DNA from: Bacteriovoracaceae bacterium
Lineage (GTDB): Bacteria; Bdellovibrionota; Bacteriovoracia; Bacteriovoracales; Bacteriovoracaceae
Assembly (NCBI GenBank): GCA_947446575.1
Contig: CANFHC010000029.1
Coordinates: forward strand, 1 to 38,831
Reading direction: 5' to 3'
DNA length: 38,831 nucleotides
Position numbers and translations under genes: made by a program. The notes beneath the pieces are model-generated. The model made no database searches and was not told the origin of the DNA. It saw only the letters and a program-made list of their open reading frames with translations. The first letter of the stretch is position 1. Each line of letters begins with the position of its first letter. This document shows, in pieces, positions 13,098 through 37,788 of this stretch.

Positions 13098-14018
13098 CTA
13101 AAATCGAAGACCGATTGTAAATTTCAAATTGAGCATATTTGTTACTTGTTCACTGGAATCAGAAAAATTTTCGTGGGCGCTTAATGATTCAACTGAACCT
13201 TCAAAAATCATCGCTACAGATGGAGTAAAAGGCATCAAATATCCAATGCGAGCTTCCGGAAGAAGTGTAACTGTTCCTGAACTTATCTCTCCATTTACTG
13301 TTGTTTCAGACTTTCCAATTCCAGCAGCCAGTGTGAGGTAAATATTATTTTTATCAGTTGAAAAATTTAATAAGTGATAAGTTGTTGCAACGGTTAACAT
13401 TGTTCTATGAGTTGGAATATCGAGTTGTACACCTGATAGTCGATAAACTTCATTATCAATTCTTCCACCAACAGTCATTTCAAATTCTGGCATAAAACGA
13501 TAGTTATAATCAATTGCAAAAGTATAACCTGTGCGATTTGTATTTTTATCAGTGCTTACATCAGACGACGACTGAGAAAGACCACGATTTAAACTGGCCC
13601 GCATTGAAAAATTATTGCTGCTTCTAAATTTTCTAAAAACTTCATAATAATTAACAGCAGGAGTGAGGTTATTAACGTCTCCCACAATATCAAGCGCCAC
13701 ATTTCCATAGGCGTGGGAGTTGTAACTTATAATTTCTTCTTTATTAAATGGAATATTCACATTGGGATCAATAGGAACCCAGAGAGAATAATTGCGGTTA
13801 ACTTCTTGCGCCTTACAAAGAATACTGACATTATCGTTAGCATAAATAATTTCTTGTCCCTTTAGCACTCCATCTTTTACTCCACGAGCAACAACAAAAG
13901 AGTGACGATCTTTTGAGACGGTTTGCACGACCATTAATTCTTCACGCGGAGGCTTTTCAGCTCCAAAAAGTGAATAACTCAAGAAAAGCAAACTCAAGAT
14001 GAAGGTTAAATTTTTCAT
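13098..14018 (-). CDS. Outer-membrane beta-barrel protein
   Basis: 306 residues. Signal peptide about 1-19 (MKNLTFILSLLFLSYSLFGA). Residues 25-105 form a soluble N-terminal part (VVARGVKDGVLKGQEIIY). From about 110 there are alternating amphipathic strands (FSMRASLNRGL, YTFAIDYNYRFMPEFEMTVGG, TMLTVATTYHLL, IYLTLAAGIGKSE, VTLLPEARIGYLMP). The last strand ends LNLKFTIGLRF, with the terminal Phe recognised by the Bam machinery. Probably a 10- to 12-strand barrel. No ribosome site lies upstream of the ATG. No family recognised. Confidence 0.82.
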   Translation of the reverse strand: MKNLTFILSLLFLSYSLFGAEKPPREELMVVQTVSKDRHSFVVARGVKDGVLKGQEIIYANDNVSILCKAQEVNRNYSLWVPIDPNVNIPFNKEEIISYNSHAYGNVALDIVGDVNNLTPAVNYYEVFRKFRSSNNFSMRASLNRGLSQSSSDVSTDKNTNRTGYTFAIDYNYRFMPEFEMTVGGRIDNEVYRLSGVQLDIPTHRTMLTVATTYHLLNFSTDKNNIYLTLAAGIGKSETTVNGEISSGTVTLLPEARIGYLMPFTPSVAMIFEGSVESLSAHENFSDSSEQVTNMLNLKFTIGLRF

Positions 14019-14201
14019 AATATAAGTAGTCTACCAGAAGCATTGCCAATAAAAAGACTCATATTTTCTACCTAGTTGAAAATGCAATTTACAGGCATAA
14101 GGACGTAACTTATGGCAAATTTTAGGCTTTTTTAGGAAGAGAAAAAGATGCGGTCATTTATACCAGACAATAGTAGTAGGGGATAAACTATTAATGTTCC
14201 T

Positions 14202-14228
14202 TAAAGATTGTCTCTAAGACTTCGATAA
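14202..14228 (+). promoter_or_regulatory. FliA (sigma28)-type promoter of the giant lipoprotein gene
   Basis: TAAAGATT (14202-14209), 11-base spacer, TTCGATAA (14221-14228). The consensus is TAAAGTTT, 11 bases, GCCGATAA: 7/8 and 6/8 matches with exact spacing. It lies 29 bases before the start codon. Confidence 0.65.
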
Positions 14229-14257
14229 GAAAGATAAGGAGTACCACAATCAACTAT

Positions 14258-17200
14258 ATGATAAAGACGGGTAAGTTTATTCATATTCTTTTTTTCTGCG
14301 CCATCACGCTTGTGATGAGTGCGTGTGTACCTAAGGCCACAGAGACTAAAGCTGTTTGTGGAACGAACCAAGCTTTTAATAGTGTGACTCGCAGTTGTTA
14401 TAACACAATTGAATTGAGAACGAAGCCGGTTGCGACTTCATCTGCATTTAATCTTACTCAAGAAACAGCAAGCACATTGACTCTTTTATATACTGATACA
14501 AATAAAGACTCTGCAATCTCTTGCAGAATTACAACTTTTGATTCAAGTAAAATTGAAATTATTTCTCCACAAGTTTTAAATGGAAATATTTTTGCACAAA
14601 CAGATCTTATATTCGATTCGGCCCAAGAGATAAGAAACGCTTTGAATGCTGGGGTCGATAAAATGACTGCCGATGGATATGTAACTGCAATGCAAACAGC
14701 TATGGCGAAGGCCAAAGCAACTTTTACTTATTCCACTTTAACTACTCAACTTGGATTATTTGAAACTGCTGCCAATAATCTTTTAACTTTAGTCTCTAAT
14801 AATGGTTACGTAGCATCAATTACACTGGTGAAATATTACTATGATCTAACACTCACGAGACAAATTAATTACAATTTAGCTAAAACCTCTGTGCTCAATC
14901 GATGTAGTTGTAGTGGAGGAATATGTACAACTACGGTAGTGCCGAGAATGCGGATAAATGGAGCTGCAGGTTTTACTTATGCGATAACAGATATCGATGG
15001 TGAAGGAGATGCAAGACCTGTTGCCCTTACTATTGCTGCCACATCTTCATCTTCAAATTATTTAAAACCAGCTGTTGAATCTAGTTATATTTCGACATTT
15101 GTTGAGAGCGCGACTCCATATCCTTCTTCTTATTCTTTTAGTCTGCCAACACCCAGTGATTATTTTACGGCCTCGGCATTTACTTATTCTTTTACAAAAC
15201 CAGTTGCCTCTTTTTATTTTCCAACATTAGCAATGACTAAAACTTATGTTCCTACTGATTCAGGGTTAGGAAAAGTGACAGATTGTTTAGGGCTTGGCGG
15301 ATCAGCATTAACAGATACGAGTTGTATTTTTATTCCCAATAGTGGTGATTCTAACGATTCTATTACTCCTGCCTTGGCCCAAACACCACTGATTAATGAT
15401 TTAGTTTTTAAAGCAAAAGCAGAAGGGACATTTGCTAATAATTATACAGTTCAGTATTTTTCTCTTACAAATCTTCCAGAAAATTTTGGATTAGTCTCAA
15501 TGTCTTATCCAGATACTTTCGTTCGAGTTAATGGAAACGCGATCCAAATTTATCTAGTAAAAGGAATTACATCTTCAACTGATATTAAAAATTTAATTAA
15601 TGCTGACATGAAGGCAAAAGCATTAGTTGCAGTTACTGGTGGTGCATTAACAACATTTCCAGATCCGGCAGTTTCAACACCCTCAGCAGTAAGTCTGTCT
15701 GGAGGAACTGATGCTTTTGATACTGTGTCTTTTTCAGTAAACAATGGTTTTGCTAGTTCAACAAATGCTGCAACAGTAATGTTTAAAATGACTCCAGTTG
15801 AAGACGCTCCACTATTTAATTCTGTCGCAAGTACGAGTGTAACAGCAGCAGAAGATTCGGGTCAAATCACAATTAATTTAACGGCTACATATTCAGATGC
15901 AGAAAATAATGTTGATTCATGTGATGTGGATCCAATATCATCAGCGTTGTTTTTAACAAACTTCACAGTGGACTCTTGTTCATGTACCGCAAGTCCGTAT
16001 CAATGTATTCTCAAAGTTACTCCGGCCACAGATGTCTCGAGTACAACTCCTTATACACTTTATTATCGAGTTGGAAGTGTTGGTCAGTTTACTGGCTATA
16101 AAGCCTATAGCGTGAATGTGACTCCCGTTAATGATGCTCCAACGATTAGTGCTCCAGGACTACAAACAATTCCAGAAAATACTTCGACAGTTCCATCATC
16201 AAGCTTTGCAACTGTTACAGTAAGTCCCGGCGGTGGAGGTTTCGAAACGTCTCAAAGTTTAGCCCTTACTGTAACAAGCGATCGTCCTACTCTAATTCCT
16301 AATACTCCATGCCAAGGCTATACTCCTGGAGCTGGAACACCAATTGGAAGTTTTACTCCAGGAGCTATTGGAGATTACTATTTTGATACGACTAATAAAA
16401 AATGTTACAAATCGACAGGGACAACAAATACTGCATGGGGTTTATATCCATCATTAACAGCCTTTCCAAAATGTCTGTATGAATCTTTCGGCCAAGGAAC
16501 ACCAAGTGTGACTCCTACGGCCGCTGGTAAATATTATTTAGATACGTTTAATAACATTTGTTACGTCTCAACGGCGGCTACTGCCAGTTCGTGGATAAAG
16601 GACAATACGTTGACAAATTTTTATGTCGCCTTTGTTCCAGTTTTAAATCAATCGAGTGCTCCTGTAACAAATATTACTATGTCACTAAAAGATACTGGTG
16701 GTGGAACTGATACAACTGCGGGAGCTTTTACCATTTCAGTAACTCCTGTTGATGATCCTCCAGTTTTTACTGCAAGTATACCGAGAGTTGATACAAACGA
16801 AGGCGGTATGGTTGTCGCTGGCCCATTTAAAGTGGATGAAGATTTAGGCAGTACGGCTGATGAAGATATTCAAAACATTCATATAAGTGCGATCACTTCT
16901 GATAATACAAGCGTTCTTGCCAATGCGACGAATTCTTACTTAACTAGCTCTATAAAAGTCTTCTATGATTTAAATGATAATGGTGTTCAAGATTCTGGAG
17001 AAGAAAGAAACTTGAGTGACTCTCTTGATATACCAAGTGCTGATGCAAAACTGCATGCGTTTTATTTAAAAATTTATCCAATCGCAGGTGTTTCTGGCAA
17101 CTCGAATATTACAATTACTGTTAATGATGATGGAGGTGCTCTTGCAACTCACTCAATTACGAAAACATTTTCATTAATAGTTCACTCAGTGGCAGCTCTT

Positions 17201-19426
17201 CATGGTGGTTGGGCCAATATTTCTGCAACAGGTTTAAAGACAGATAAAAATGGTGCACCTGCCTCTGATTTAGATGTCGTTTGTAATTTTAATTTATCAG
17301 GTGAAACACAAAAATGTAATTCGAATCAAGATTGTACTGGATCGGGAAGTCCCGCTGCCTCAGTTCTTCCATCTGCGGCCAATATATTGTATTGGGATAG
17401 CGGAAATAAAAAATGTTATCGCAGTACTGGAACAACTGTTTATTCTTGGTTAGATTTAAAAACGACTTGTCCGATAACTAGAGTGGCCGGTGTGAATTGG
17501 ATTAGTTCAACTCCATATACACCATCAGCGGTAGGACAATATTATTTTGATCCATCAGATAACACTTGTTATGTCAGTACGGGAACAACTGTGACTGATT
17601 GGATTGCTTACGTTCCTGCAAAAATAACACTCGCATGGAATTCATTTAATATTACTGGCTCAGGTGCAGACGCTACTGTAACTCAATCAGGTTGGAATGT
17701 TTACAGAAGAGAAGCAGGTAGAGATTATGATTTTGTTAACGGATACTTAAAAAATGCAGACAAAAGTATTACTGGAATGACGTTAACGAATGCATCGATT
17801 AGAACTTTTACAGATACAACCGCTGTTGCTGGAAAAGTTTATTATTATTTAGTCCGCCCGGTTGATAGTCGTACTTCACCGACCTCTGCTGCTCACTTAA
17901 CGATTAGCACTTCAGAAATATTTTCTGAAGTACGAATTTTGGCGCCCACTGAAAATTATACTTTTGTTCATCGATGGATGGTTAACCAAGAAATTTGTAA
18001 TAATATGCATATGACAACTTCAACGTCATTACCTAACCAAGTTGATCCAACTCACAATTATAGATGCCCTTATAAAGGTCCAGGAGAGTCGGCAACATAT
18101 CCAGGATATTATGATATTGGAAAAGATTTATTAGTTGATATTGCTGAAAGTGGATGCCCTTATACAGCGTCTCCATCTTGTACAACAAATGGATGCATAG
18201 GTATTGGAGCTCCAAGTTCAATGTCTGCTGATGCTGCTGGGAATATTTATTATGACCGCAGCTCTGGAGTTTGTTATTTAGCTAACTCAGTTACTTCTGG
18301 GGATTGGACAGAATTTAATACGGCCACTCAGACTGTTGCGAGTGTCACCAAATTAAATACATCTCTCAATGCTCCTTTGGTTAATATCACTGAGGCAAGT
18401 GCAGCCGCGATTTGTACGAATCGTAAGGTGGGAACAAAATTAGCGACAGCACTTGCTGGTCCTACTCCGCTTGTTGCGGCTTCAACATTAGCGCTTCCAA
18501 GTAAAAAAGAATACATCGCTTATTCAGCTGCCCCATTTGCAATGACCGATGCTCTTGTAACAGATTTAGAGCAAGGCTTTTCATTAAATGTTCAATCTCG
18601 TTGTAACTCTGCCAACGCTAACGGAATAGATACGGCCTTTAATGATTCACCAATTCCTTCGACGAGTTTTATCTATTCATTACCGGGAACTGCTTCATCC
18701 GGAATACGATCGATTTATACCGGTTCTGTAAAATGGGCCAATAATTTCTCGACTGAAACTTGTAGTTCTCGATATGGTATTCAAGATGTGTACGGTAACG
18801 TTGCTGAATGGGTTAAGGATAAAATGACTTGTAATGCAGCCAATTATATTTGCACTTCTGTAGCAGGTGCTTCTGGAACTGAATTGGGGCGATATGATTT
18901 TTCTTCGGGAACTTATACCAACACTCCATCAAATCCTTACGCATTTGATAATGTAGTTGGTCCTTTTAATGACATAAGTGCTAATTCGATTCCTGATGCT
19001 GGTGATGGATTTTTAGATAATTGGGATTTTAGAAATGAGCTTTATGGCGCCGGTAAATTCAGTTTCCCGATGGGAATGCCAATCTTTGTAGATATTAATT
19101 CAGGTGTGCTTGCTAGCTCTGTTGCTTTACCATTTTTATTGGATATTGGACCCACGGCCGGTATCACAACTTCACAACTGCATGAAGACGGATTGATAGT
19201 CAATGGTGCTGCGATCAATAATAGCGGATCTAACCCAACTCAAATTGGAACGTTTGCTCAGGGGGGAAGTTATTTATCTGGTAATCGTTCAGGTCGATAT
19301 TCATCTGAATTAGTTCCCGATGCTACTGCATTATCAAAACGTCCAGACATTGGCTTTAGATGTATTCTTCCAATTGCTCCGGCCAATTTTCCAGCTGATA
19401 GTATTCATCCGTATTCAGCCTACTAA
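14258..19426 (+). CDS. Giant surface lipoprotein with Ig/cadherin-like repeats, five YYFD-C-STGTT-W motifs and a C-terminal FGE-like domain
   Basis: 1722 residues. A lipoprotein signal (VMSAC, Cys about 22) is followed by a long array of beta-sandwich repeats ending VTPVNDAP or VTPVDDPP, as in tandem cadherin-like proteins. A fibronectin-III-like segment lies at about 1118-1220 (ITLAWNSFNI, GWNVYRREAG, YYYLVRPVD). From about 1230 to the end is a formylglycine-generating-enzyme/SUMF1-like (C-type-lectin-related) domain with YGNVAEWV (1512-1519), GGSYLSG near 1669 and a closing GFRCI. Five copies of a 28-residue motif interrupt these domains. The ATG is 16 bases after AAGGAG (14236-14241). Driven by a FliA-type promoter. 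Likely an attack-phase adhesin or prey-contact protein (inference). The family as a whole is not one I know. Confidence 0.88.
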   Translation: MIKTGKFIHILFFCAITLVMSACVPKATETKAVCGTNQAFNSVTRSCYNTIELRTKPVATSSAFNLTQETASTLTLLYTDTNKDSAISCRITTFDSSKIEIISPQVLNGNIFAQTDLIFDSAQEIRNALNAGVDKMTADGYVTAMQTAMAKAKATFTYSTLTTQLGLFETAANNLLTLVSNNGYVASITLVKYYYDLTLTRQINYNLAKTSVLNRCSCSGGICTTTVVPRMRINGAAGFTYAITDIDGEGDARPVALTIAATSSSSNYLKPAVESSYISTFVESATPYPSSYSFSLPTPSDYFTASAFTYSFTKPVASFYFPTLAMTKTYVPTDSGLGKVTDCLGLGGSALTDTSCIFIPNSGDSNDSITPALAQTPLINDLVFKAKAEGTFANNYTVQYFSLTNLPENFGLVSMSYPDTFVRVNGNAIQIYLVKGITSSTDIKNLINADMKAKALVAVTGGALTTFPDPAVSTPSAVSLSGGTDAFDTVSFSVNNGFASSTNAATVMFKMTPVEDAPLFNSVASTSVTAAEDSGQITINLTATYSDAENNVDSCDVDPISSALFLTNFTVDSCSCTASPYQCILKVTPATDVSSTTPYTLYYRVGSVGQFTGYKAYSVNVTPVNDAPTISAPGLQTIPENTSTVPSSSFATVTVSPGGGGFETSQSLALTVTSDRPTLIPNTPCQGYTPGAGTPIGSFTPGAIGDYYFDTTNKKCYKSTGTTNTAWGLYPSLTAFPKCLYESFGQGTPSVTPTAAGKYYLDTFNNICYVSTAATASSWIKDNTLTNFYVAFVPVLNQSSAPVTNITMSLKDTGGGTDTTAGAFTISVTPVDDPPVFTASIPRVDTNEGGMVVAGPFKVDEDLGSTADEDIQNIHISAITSDNTSVLANATNSYLTSSIKVFYDLNDNGVQDSGEERNLSDSLDIPSADAKLHAFYLKIYPIAGVSGNSNITITVNDDGGALATHSITKTFSLIVHSVAALHGGWANISATGLKTDKNGAPASDLDVVCNFNLSGETQKCNSNQDCTGSGSPAASVLPSAANILYWDSGNKKCYRSTGTTVYSWLDLKTTCPITRVAGVNWISSTPYTPSAVGQYYFDPSDNTCYVSTGTTVTDWIAYVPAKITLAWNSFNITGSGADATVTQSGWNVYRREAGRDYDFVNGYLKNADKSITGMTLTNASIRTFTDTTAVAGKVYYYLVRPVDSRTSPTSAAHLTISTSEIFSEVRILAPTENYTFVHRWMVNQEICNNMHMTTSTSLPNQVDPTHNYRCPYKGPGESATYPGYYDIGKDLLVDIAESGCPYTASPSCTTNGCIGIGAPSSMSADAAGNIYYDRSSGVCYLANSVTSGDWTEFNTATQTVASVTKLNTSLNAPLVNITEASAAAICTNRKVGTKLATALAGPTPLVAASTLALPSKKEYIAYSAAPFAMTDALVTDLEQGFSLNVQSRCNSANANGIDTAFNDSPIPSTSFIYSLPGTASSGIRSIYTGSVKWANNFSTETCSSRYGIQDVYGNVAEWVKDKMTCNAANYICTSVAGASGTELGRYDFSSGTYTNTPSNPYAFDNVVGPFNDISANSIPDAGDGFLDNWDFRNELYGAGKFSFPMGMPIFVDINSGVLASSVALPFLLDIGPTAGITTSQLHEDGLIVNGAAINNSGSNPTQIGTFAQGGSYLSGNRSGRYSSELVPDATALSKRPDIGFRCILPIAPANFPADSIHPYSAY
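16355..18307 (+). repeat. Five dispersed copies of a 28-residue protein motif
   Basis: Copies at residues 700-727, 752-779, 1037-1064, 1088-1115 and 1323-1350 (bases 16355-16438, 16511-16594, 17366-17449, 17519-17602, 18224-18307). Consensus: xPxAxGxYYFDxxNxxCYxSTGTTxxxW. Each is preceded 9-16 residues upstream by another Cys (685, 739, 1026, 1071, 1313), giving a two-Cys unit of about 40-45 residues. Two tight pairs (spacing 52 and 51) and one single. Confidence 0.9.
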
Positions 19427-19625: not shown

Positions 19626-20441
19626 ATGGGGAAGGTCATAAGCTTCATTAATCAAAAAGGTGGTGTCGGTAAAACGACCATGGCCTTTAATGCGGCCCAC
19701 GCGCTCGCTAAAAATGGACATAAGGTGCTAGCAATAGACCTCGATCCACAGGCCAATCTTACACTTTTATTTAAAGCTGAAAATGATCCCAATATTTATC
19801 AATTACTGGTTAATTCAGTTAAAGAATTAAAAATGCTTCACGCCCCAGCAATGCTGAGCTCAGTTTTAAAACGAGGTTCTGTGGATTTACTGCCGGCAGG
19901 CCAAGAGCTTTCTGGTTTTGATTTAACTGTTGCTGGTATCAATGCTCCAAGACAACTTGTTCTTCGTAAATTTATGGAAGTGAATGATCTGCGTGATCGA
20001 TACGATTTTATTATCATTGATTGCCCACCAACGCTGGGGCTTTTAGTAATCAACGCACTTTGTGCGAGTGATGGAGTCATCGTTCCTTTTAGACCTGATG
20101 ATTTTTCTCTTAAAGGGCTTGAGCATTTTTATCAAGTGATTGAAGATATCGCAGATATGGGAATAGTCAAAGCTCCAGAAGTATTCTTGCATGTCCCTAA
20201 TTTAGTAGATCTACGCCGCAAACAAGAAAGTGATGATTTGGCAAAAATTATTACGTCTATAGATTCAGAATTAGGTGAGGGAAAAGTATTCTCTCCTTTT
20301 CTTAATAAGGCCGGTCTCGTAAAATCACTTTCAAGTAGAAAATCAGTTTTTGATTTTAAAACGCAAGAATTTAGCGAACTTCAGGAGAAATTCAGTGGAG
20401 TCGCAAAAAAAATTGAGGAATGGTCATATGAGCACATCTAA
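19626..20441 (+). CDS. ParA-family (Walker-type) positioning ATPase
   Basis: 271 residues. Deviant Walker A KGGVGKTT (residues 11-18), Walker A' IDLDPQANLT and Walker B FIIIDCPPTLG, then VIVPFRPDDFSLKGL. Such ATPases dimerise on the nucleoid with ATP and position plasmids, chromosomes or protein clusters. No N-terminal HTH, no ParB gene and no parS-like repeats nearby. ATG 19626 follows AGGGAG. The last 14 bases overlap a 93-residue ORF. This makes it an orphan ParA whose cargo may be specified by that small partner. Confidence 0.92.
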   Translation: MGKVISFINQKGGVGKTTMAFNAAHALAKNGHKVLAIDLDPQANLTLLFKAENDPNIYQLLVNSVKELKMLHAPAMLSSVLKRGSVDLLPAGQELSGFDLTVAGINAPRQLVLRKFMEVNDLRDRYDFIIIDCPPTLGLLVINALCASDGVIVPFRPDDFSLKGLEHFYQVIEDIADMGIVKAPEVFLHVPNLVDLRRKQESDDLAKIITSIDSELGEGKVFSPFLNKAGLVKSLSSRKSVFDFKTQEFSELQEKFSGVAKKIEEWSYEHI

Positions 20442-36345: not shown

Positions 36346-36372
36346 TAAAGCTTTTACTTTAAAAGCCGATAA
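36346..36372 (+). promoter_or_regulatory. Near-consensus FliA (sigma28) promoter
   Basis: TAAAGCTT (36346-36353), exactly 11 bases, GCCGATAA (36365-36372): 7/8 and 8/8 matches. It lies 39 bases before the next start codon. Confidence 0.8.
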
Positions 36373-36411: not shown

Positions 36412-37788
36412 ATGAAAATATTTAAATTGTTATCAAAAAAAATTTTAACTTCAATATCTTTTCCTTTTGCAATTTTTTTCTTAGTTTCAATGTTATACAA
36501 CACTACTGCATCTGCTATTTCTCTAGCAGAATTAAGTTATCAATTGGCTATTGGGAGTTGCCCAACCCAAAAGGTAATAGGTGAAGAAGATTTAGTTAAA
36601 TGCGGAGTTAATAAAACTATTCAGCAAAATAAATCAAATATAATGTCACAAATCTCTGATGATGCTTATTTAGCAGGACTAGCAAATATTCGTTATAATT
36701 CAATTGGTTGTGCGCAAACTCAAATTGATGGATTAGAAGCTAACCCAAAGAAGCTCGAGAAGTTTATTACTATCTACACTCTTAGTGTGATCGAAATCGG
36801 GCTAGAAAAAAGAATGATGAGCGCACGTTCACCATTTATAAATACTGATAAAAAAGCAAAAGAAGATTACACAAATGCTCGATTAAGGGCCGAGGCAATT
36901 TTAGCATCACTACCGTTTACTCAAATTCCTTCATTGCGCCTTACAATTAACCACATAGTCTCTCAAATTGATTATTCCATTGATCCATTCTCCCCTGAAA
37001 TTGAAAAAGATTTCGAAAAATTAGTTAAATATGCGTTACAGCAGTCTAAGAAAGAAATTATAGAAAATAAAGAGGTTATGAGAATTGGTGTTCGTTCAAT
37101 TGGTAAATCATTGTCGAATACAGTTAGAGAATCCTTAGCTCAAGACACTGACTTGATTGAAGAGTTTAAACAAAATTCGGGAATGAGTAATGCTCAACTG
37201 GCTCCCTCCGCTTGTAGTGTAGATGCAAAATATGGGCGTGGGGCGAGTTATCGAGATGATGCTCTTTTAATTGCAACCATACTTGGTCCAGAAATAGCAA
37301 TAGGTTTAGAGCAACTAGGTAAAGCAGGTATTGCTCTTAAAAGTTCAATTACCGGAGCTGCTGCCATGGGGACTTTTAGCATACGAACCGCTGGTGTTCT
37401 CCGTTTATTGAGCACTATGGGACATGGTTTGGATATCTTAAAACAAATAGAGAAATCATGTTTTGCTGAAGTAACATTAAAAAGTGATCATTATGATCAA
37501 AAATGTGAGAAAAATATTATAAAATCCCTCGGAAATGATACCTGTGCTTTGGATATATTTCTAGGCGCACTAGGCGCCAAGTCAATACTTGGACATTTCA
37601 AGTTAGATAGTGATGAAATCATACATCCAATTGACATTCATGAATATTTTCACGAAAAAGCAAAACAATTAAGTTTGTATAATGCGAATATCTTAATGCA
37701 CGATCCATCAGAAGTAGTTGATGATAAAAAAAATACGAATCCTCCCAATCCGAATCCTTCACCAACTCCTGCTCCATTGAAAAAATAG
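36412..37788 (+). CDS. Secreted protein of unknown function, FliA-controlled
   Basis: 458 residues. Long signal peptide (about 1-35, ending TTASA). The mature part is mostly helical with Cys at intervals (SYQLAIGSCPTQ, LVKCGVN, NSIGCAQTQ, APSACSVDAKYGRG, KSCFAEVTLK, DQKCEKNI, NDTCALDIF). A glycine/alanine-rich hydrophobic stretch (LIATILGPEIAIGLEQLG, ITGAAAMGTFSIR) lies near 280-320, and the C-terminus is Pro/Asn-rich (NPPNPNPSPTPAPLKK). No family recognised. No ribosome site precedes the ATG. The FliA promoter suggests it is made in the motile phase. Confidence 0.8.
   Translation: MKIFKLLSKKILTSISFPFAIFFLVSMLYNTTASAISLAELSYQLAIGSCPTQKVIGEEDLVKCGVNKTIQQNKSNIMSQISDDAYLAGLANIRYNSIGCAQTQIDGLEANPKKLEKFITIYTLSVIEIGLEKRMMSARSPFINTDKKAKEDYTNARLRAEAILASLPFTQIPSLRLTINHIVSQIDYSIDPFSPEIEKDFEKLVKYALQQSKKEIIENKEVMRIGVRSIGKSLSNTVRESLAQDTDLIEEFKQNSGMSNAQLAPSACSVDAKYGRGASYRDDALLIATILGPEIAIGLEQLGKAGIALKSSITGAAAMGTFSIRTAGVLRLLSTMGHGLDILKQIEKSCFAEVTLKSDHYDQKCEKNIIKSLGNDTCALDIFLGALGAKSILGHFKLDSDEIIHPIDIHEYFHEKAKQLSLYNANILMHDPSEVVDDKKNTNPPNPNPSPTPAPLKK

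Follow-up and report, generated by a model that had tools for sequence, protein, structure and literature searches.

The locus lies in a 3.39-Mb draft assembly of a Bacteriovoracaceae bacterium and within the window, by which we mean the whole 38,831-nucleotide stretch of DNA analysed here. It comprises the gene of a giant lipoprotein, a sigma28-type promoter in front of it, a divergently oriented gene for a probable outer-membrane beta-barrel protein and a downstream gene for a ParA-type ATPase (Table 1). The closest named relatives of the lipoprotein are found in Bacteriovorax sp. and in Bacteriovoracaceae metagenome-assembled genomes. The first-pass annotation gave the locus as 14202-19426; the open reading frame is indeed intact and ends there, but the first position is the start of the promoter and the gene itself starts at 14258. 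The N terminus, MIKTGKFIHILFFCAITLVMSAC, is a hydrophobic signal peptide followed by a lipobox (MIKTGKFIHILFFCAITLVMSA followed by CVPKATE), as in bacterial lipoproteins, and the lipobox is kept in every orthologue whose N terminus is readable, which bears out the lipid anchor proposed earlier. The protein contains 36 Cys residues, many of them invariant among the aligned heads, and this fits the expectation for an exported, disulfide-rich protein.

Orthologues are 1590-1960 aa long and usually present as a single copy, and the occurrence of one per genome over most of the family amounts to a core-gene pattern. The gene order is also conserved: the beta-barrel and lipoprotein genes are adjacent in all 12 genus loci and in 13/20 loci of other genera, and the parA-type gene is syntenic in all 12 genus loci that reach that far and in 11/20 others. 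Since the pairing with the beta-barrel gene is conserved, it suggests that the two proteins share a function or may be partners. The beta-barrel protein is small and has an N-terminal extension.

Table 1. Features of the giant lipoprotein locus, with positions in the window
Feature	Position	Strand	Basis
Probable outer-membrane beta-barrel protein, 306 aa (divergent neighbour)	13098..14018	-	Signal peptide; C-terminal ...FTIGLRF
Sigma28 (FliA-type) promoter, TAAAGATT-N11-TTCGATAA	14202..14228	+	Pattern match; boxes conserved in 12/12 genus orthologues
Giant lipoprotein gene, 1722 aa	14258..19426	+	Intact ORF; orthologues in 13/14 genus genomes, 76/129 family genomes and 35/48 family genera
Lipoprotein signal peptide and lipobox (VMSA-C, Cys23)	14258..14326	+	Sequence; lipobox in orthologues
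Cadherin/Ig-like stalk repeats, residues ~505-840	15770..16777	+	Pfam Cadherin_4; VTPV(E/N/D)D(A/P)P linkers
Two-Cys module of ~45 aa, C..Y..G...YYFDTTNKKCYKSTGTT..W, four stalk copies	16310..17602	+	Sequence
Putative FN3-like domain, residues ~1122-1224	17621..17929	+	Weak support; relatively well conserved (0.54)
FGE-like (pseudo-enzyme) head, residues 1225-1703	17930..19366	+	PF03781 matches across the family; motif blocks
ParA-type ATPase (downstream neighbour)	19626..20441	+	AAA_31, 163 bits

The sigma28 promoter and its footprint

A relaxed sigma28 pattern matches the window at two sites, against 0.01 matches expected by chance. Scanned over the whole genome, the sigma28 pattern returned 20 sites as against 12 with a reversed control, which is weak by itself, and we thus relied on a phylogenetic footprint, which we regard as the strongest result of this analysis. 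First of all, every genus orthologue whose upstream DNA could be read (12/12) carries TAAAG-N14-(T/C)TCGATAAG at 98-127 bp 5' of the lipobox Cys codon, the boxes being 100% (TAAAG) and 98% (TTCGATAAG) identical, whereas the 14-bp spacer and the downstream flank, at 35% and 32%, are not conserved. Second, in a set of 32 orthologues from about 20 genera, TAAAG-N15-16-CGATA is found within 200 bp in 19, the background being 3/2104 windows from the same 32 loci, and allowing N17 as well raises the count to 22 of these family orthologues. Finally, the host genome encodes FliA (TIGR02479, 278 bits) and gives nine flagellin matches, and TAAAG-type sites lie upstream of two of the flagellin genes (TAAAGATA..ACGATTAG and TAAAGCTT..GCCGAAAA). 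The flagellar sigma28 promoter named in the first-pass annotation is thus strongly supported, both by boxes conserved in all 12 genus orthologues and by the presence of FliA and flagellins in the genome, and this regulatory claim appears firmer than could have been known at that stage; its conserved promoter makes the gene a probable member of the FliA (sigma28) regulon.

In Bdellovibrio bacteriovorus, FliA is a global attack-phase regulator that accounts for two thirds of attack-phase promoters, cell-surface proteins included (PMC3627812), and by analogy this role may extend to Bacteriovoracaceae. FliA itself was detected in 120/129 family genomes and flagellins in 6/6 of those tested; its near universality makes co-occurrence of FliA with the lipoprotein gene uninformative, and we set that line of evidence aside. 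One highly complete genome (G071) has the gene and no FliA match, probably owing to an assembly gap, because its flagellins are still there. The same wide occurrence of FliA and flagellins, taken with a promoter present in all the genus orthologues that could be read, would also suit an envelope lipoprotein associated with the flagellum or with motility, for example at the flagellar sheath or pole, which would be no adhesin and whose sigma28 control would reflect a direct flagellar function. However, no flagellar genes adjoin the locus, where the neighbours are the outer-membrane protein, parA, queA/tgt and secD; many family genomes have FliA and lack the gene, which argues against a universal flagellar part; and the general attack-phase role of FliA in Bdellovibrio (PMC3627812) weighs in the same direction. 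We consider this explanation unlikely.

A second conserved element, roughly CCGACAATnGnAGTnAGGGATAAAATAGTA, is seen in the genus orthologues at ~14165-14195, 5' of the sigma28 site, where the lipoprotein gene and the divergent beta-barrel gene share their intergenic DNA; it may be the site of a regulator or a further promoter. Elsewhere in the window, at 36346-36372, there is another and closer sigma28 match, TAAAGCTT-N11-GCCGATAA, followed after 40 bp by an ORF (36412-37788, + strand) whose product, exported and 458 aa long, matches no Pfam family.

Stalk repeats and the FGE-like head

The stalk had been described as many Ig/cadherin-like domains, of which the type stands and the number does not. 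Pfam Cadherin_4 scores 27.4 bits against its gathering cut-off of 25.1, which places the protein among bacterial cadherin-like proteins, and VTPV(E/N/D)D(A/P)P linkers between the repeats can be read straight from the protein sequence; "many", on the other hand, is an extrapolation from the three to four stretches that are detectable. The two-Cys module occurs in the stalk at residues 685-727, 739-780, 1026-1064 and 1071-1115 and once more inside the head (residues 1313-1350, window 18194-18307), and it looks like a mobile mini-module. As for the FN3-like domain that had been proposed between stalk and head, a Pfam fn3 match in 1/25 homologous segments (E 0.01) and an hhalign comparison with Pfam-verified FN3 domains of paralogues (P 2.5e-4) lend the assignment weak support. 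A second set of giant lipoproteins, FN3-rich or HYDIN/Ig-type and 1365-1727 aa long, was seen in L048, L049 and L050; those of L048 form a tandem cluster, and the C-terminal regions of the set partly match the head profile.

The head is made up of an N-block (FVHRWMVNQEICNNM) followed by APLVNIT...C...LPSKKEYIAYS, YGIQDVYGNVAEW and GGSYLSGNRSGRY...RPDIGFRC, and the three FGE signature blocks stand in it in the right order. Membership of the FGE-sulfatase superfamily (PF03781) is seen at the family level: the profile matches 21/25 orthologous heads, with a best E of 6.4e-8, and two of the ten heads listed individually exceed the cut-off of 23.3 bits (24.9 and 24.4), whereas the window protein taken alone scores 18.1 bits and is sub-threshold. 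The first-pass annotation had also pointed to the catalytic Cys pair of true FGE as a check on the C terminus, and none of the 25 aligned heads has a Cys at the active-site positions (the stretch in the window protein reads GGSYLSGNRSGRYSS). The head is therefore not a formylglycine-generating enzyme, and an active enzyme of this kind was rejected. The earlier FGE-like assignment thus stands as family relatedness, although the fold itself is not confirmed: AlphaFold models of residues 1118-1722 and 1225-1722, built from only four sequences each, had a mean pLDDT of 30, and a profile search of PDB sequences with the head returned PorK/GldK-type lipoproteins, SUMF2 and FGE among its top matches at non-significant E values of 0.16-5. 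The sole above-threshold PF03781 match in the host genome is an OvoA-like enzyme domain (L051, G000:C6:76724-77515) in a fusion with a domain of the PLP-dependent decarboxylase type. When this OvoA-like FGE domain was compared with the head by hhalign, only the GNV.W block aligned, without significance.

The best of the solved-structure matches, at E 0.16-0.23 and likewise not significant, are of the PorK/GldK type, and FGE-fold lipoproteins of that type can be periplasmic scaffolds, the fold having been repurposed in the PorKN ring (PMC12421860). This counts against a contact head and, together with the conserved synteny with the beta-barrel gene, would fit a periplasm-facing scaffold that forms an envelope machine with its neighbour. 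Against such a scaffold stand the length of the protein, since 1722 aa, with a stalk of cadherin/Ig type, is long for part of a periplasmic ring, the lack of any other T9SS component among the adjoining genes, which were the only ones examined, and lineage-specific domain insertions in loops of the head, which fit an exposed surface better. We judge a periplasmic role quite unlikely.

FGE-related folds serve as variable binding domains in other systems, and the first-pass annotation had extended this to the present head; species comparison does not support it. Among genus orthologues, mean identity over the whole protein is 0.45; the stalk lies below this value at 0.42, and the FN3-like domain (0.54) and the head (0.52) lie above it. 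Conservation is thus higher in the head than in the stalk, and higher still in the GGS-to-GFR segment (0.60). By motif correspondence, this segment is the one that varies in TvpA, TaqVP and Mtd (PMC6328139). No RVT_1 match was found in the host genome, and in the 5/14 genus genomes that have one it never lies on the contig of the orthologue. At the species level, therefore, neither a nearby reverse transcriptase nor hypervariable GGS-GFR residues mark the protein as a variable protein of a diversity-generating retroelement (DGR), and a hypervariable, DGR-diversified head was rejected.

The head does change by insertion. Several orthologues carry 65-156 additional residues after residue 1528, beside the GNVAEW block, and in 12/32 orthologues (L088, L089, L090, L091, L092, L093, L094, L097, L099, L100, L101 and L102) some 95-250 residues are inserted after residue 1693, between GGS and GFR. 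Provided that the motifs are in register, the latter insertion would fall in the ligand-site segment. The domains inserted there look by eye like residues 375-470 of the window protein. As two loops of the head take lineage-specific insertions, head diversification through domain insertion is a possible hypothesis. The fuller proposal, of a conserved attack-phase prey-contact protein of Bacteriovoracaceae that would keep a constant FGE-type scaffold and change specificity through whole-domain inserts after residues 1528 and 1693, we regard as conceivable and doubtful.

A conserved head would, for its part, suggest a constant ligand, and a cadherin/Ig lipoprotein is a generic design for adhesion; a general surface or biofilm adhesin, acting in self-aggregation or particle attachment and unrelated to prey, could thus account for both. 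A motile-phase promoter would however be unusual for an adhesin of the sessile phase, and we hold this explanation to be as improbable as the periplasmic scaffold.

A candidate contact protein and its counterparts

We favour, with moderate confidence, a swimming- or attack-phase surface stalk that carries a pseudo-FGE contact head and is controlled by sigma28 (FliA). Under such a scheme, FliA would switch on an outer-envelope lipoprotein in the motile (attack) phase; a lipid at its N terminus would serve as anchor; the cadherin/Ig repeats and Cys-rich modules would build a long, disulfide-stiffened stalk; and the pseudo-FGE (C-type-lectin-type) head, at the tip of this stalk, would make contact with prey cells or surfaces or adhere to them, with the divergently encoded beta-barrel protein as a likely partner. 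The sequence itself shows the promoter, the lipobox, the cadherin repeats, the relatedness to FGE, the loss of the catalytic Cys and the synteny; the surface exposure of the head, its position at the tip, its ligand binding and prey as its target are the steps that we infer. Because it is conserved over most of the family, the giant lipoprotein is a good candidate surface contact protein, and prey recognition or binding by the head is a plausible candidate role. A conserved head is unusual for a specificity determinant that faces diverse prey, and it is compatible with a conserved ligand.

For experiment, the protein offers a concrete deletion target, being mostly single-copy and present in most genera, with a swimming-phase promoter that is strictly conserved and a beta-barrel gene linked to its own. 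It would also add predatory bacteria to the settings in which the FGE fold has been reused without catalysis, alongside T9SS rings and retroelement-diversified receptors. Our literature search found no paper combining SUMF1 with Bdellovibrio or Halobacteriovorax with cadherin, and no transcriptome for this lineage; the prey-recognition literature that it did find concerns Bdellovibrio (MAT fibres, Bd0875), with none describing a Bacteriovoracaceae receptor.

Among known systems, bacterial FGE/SUMF1 (PF03781) shares with the head the motifs LP..KE, GNV.EW and GGS...GFR in the same order and differs in its two active-site Cys, both of which are missing from 25/25 aligned heads. TvpA, which is a lipoprotein as well, and TaqVP are single-domain proteins, in contrast to the giant Ig/cadherin stalk found here. 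With these two and with Mtd, all DGR variable proteins, the head would share a CLec segment of the FGE subtype that stands at the C terminus and lacks FGE chemistry, the fold being read here from motifs; in such proteins, the ligand site lies between beta3 and beta5 at the C terminus (PMC6328139). Unlike them, the giant lipoprotein has no reverse transcriptase near its gene, and its GGS-GFR segment is conserved, not hypervariable. PorK and GldK of the T9SS ring are likewise outer-membrane lipoproteins with a non-catalytic FGE domain (PMC12421860); they are, on the other hand, proteins of Bacteroidota, short, part of a periplasmic ring and without an Ig/cadherin stalk, and no sigma28 promoter is known for them. 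The nearest precedent among predators is Bd2740 of B. bacteriovorus, a mosaic adhesive trimer (MAT) fibre whose CLec-fold tip lacks Ca binding (PMC10769870). The likeness would lie in a long fibre with a CLec-type tip in a bacterial predator, which for the present protein is a proposal, whereas MATs are trimeric fibres with a classic CLec head and ours combines a lipobox, Ig/cadherin repeats and an FGE-type head.
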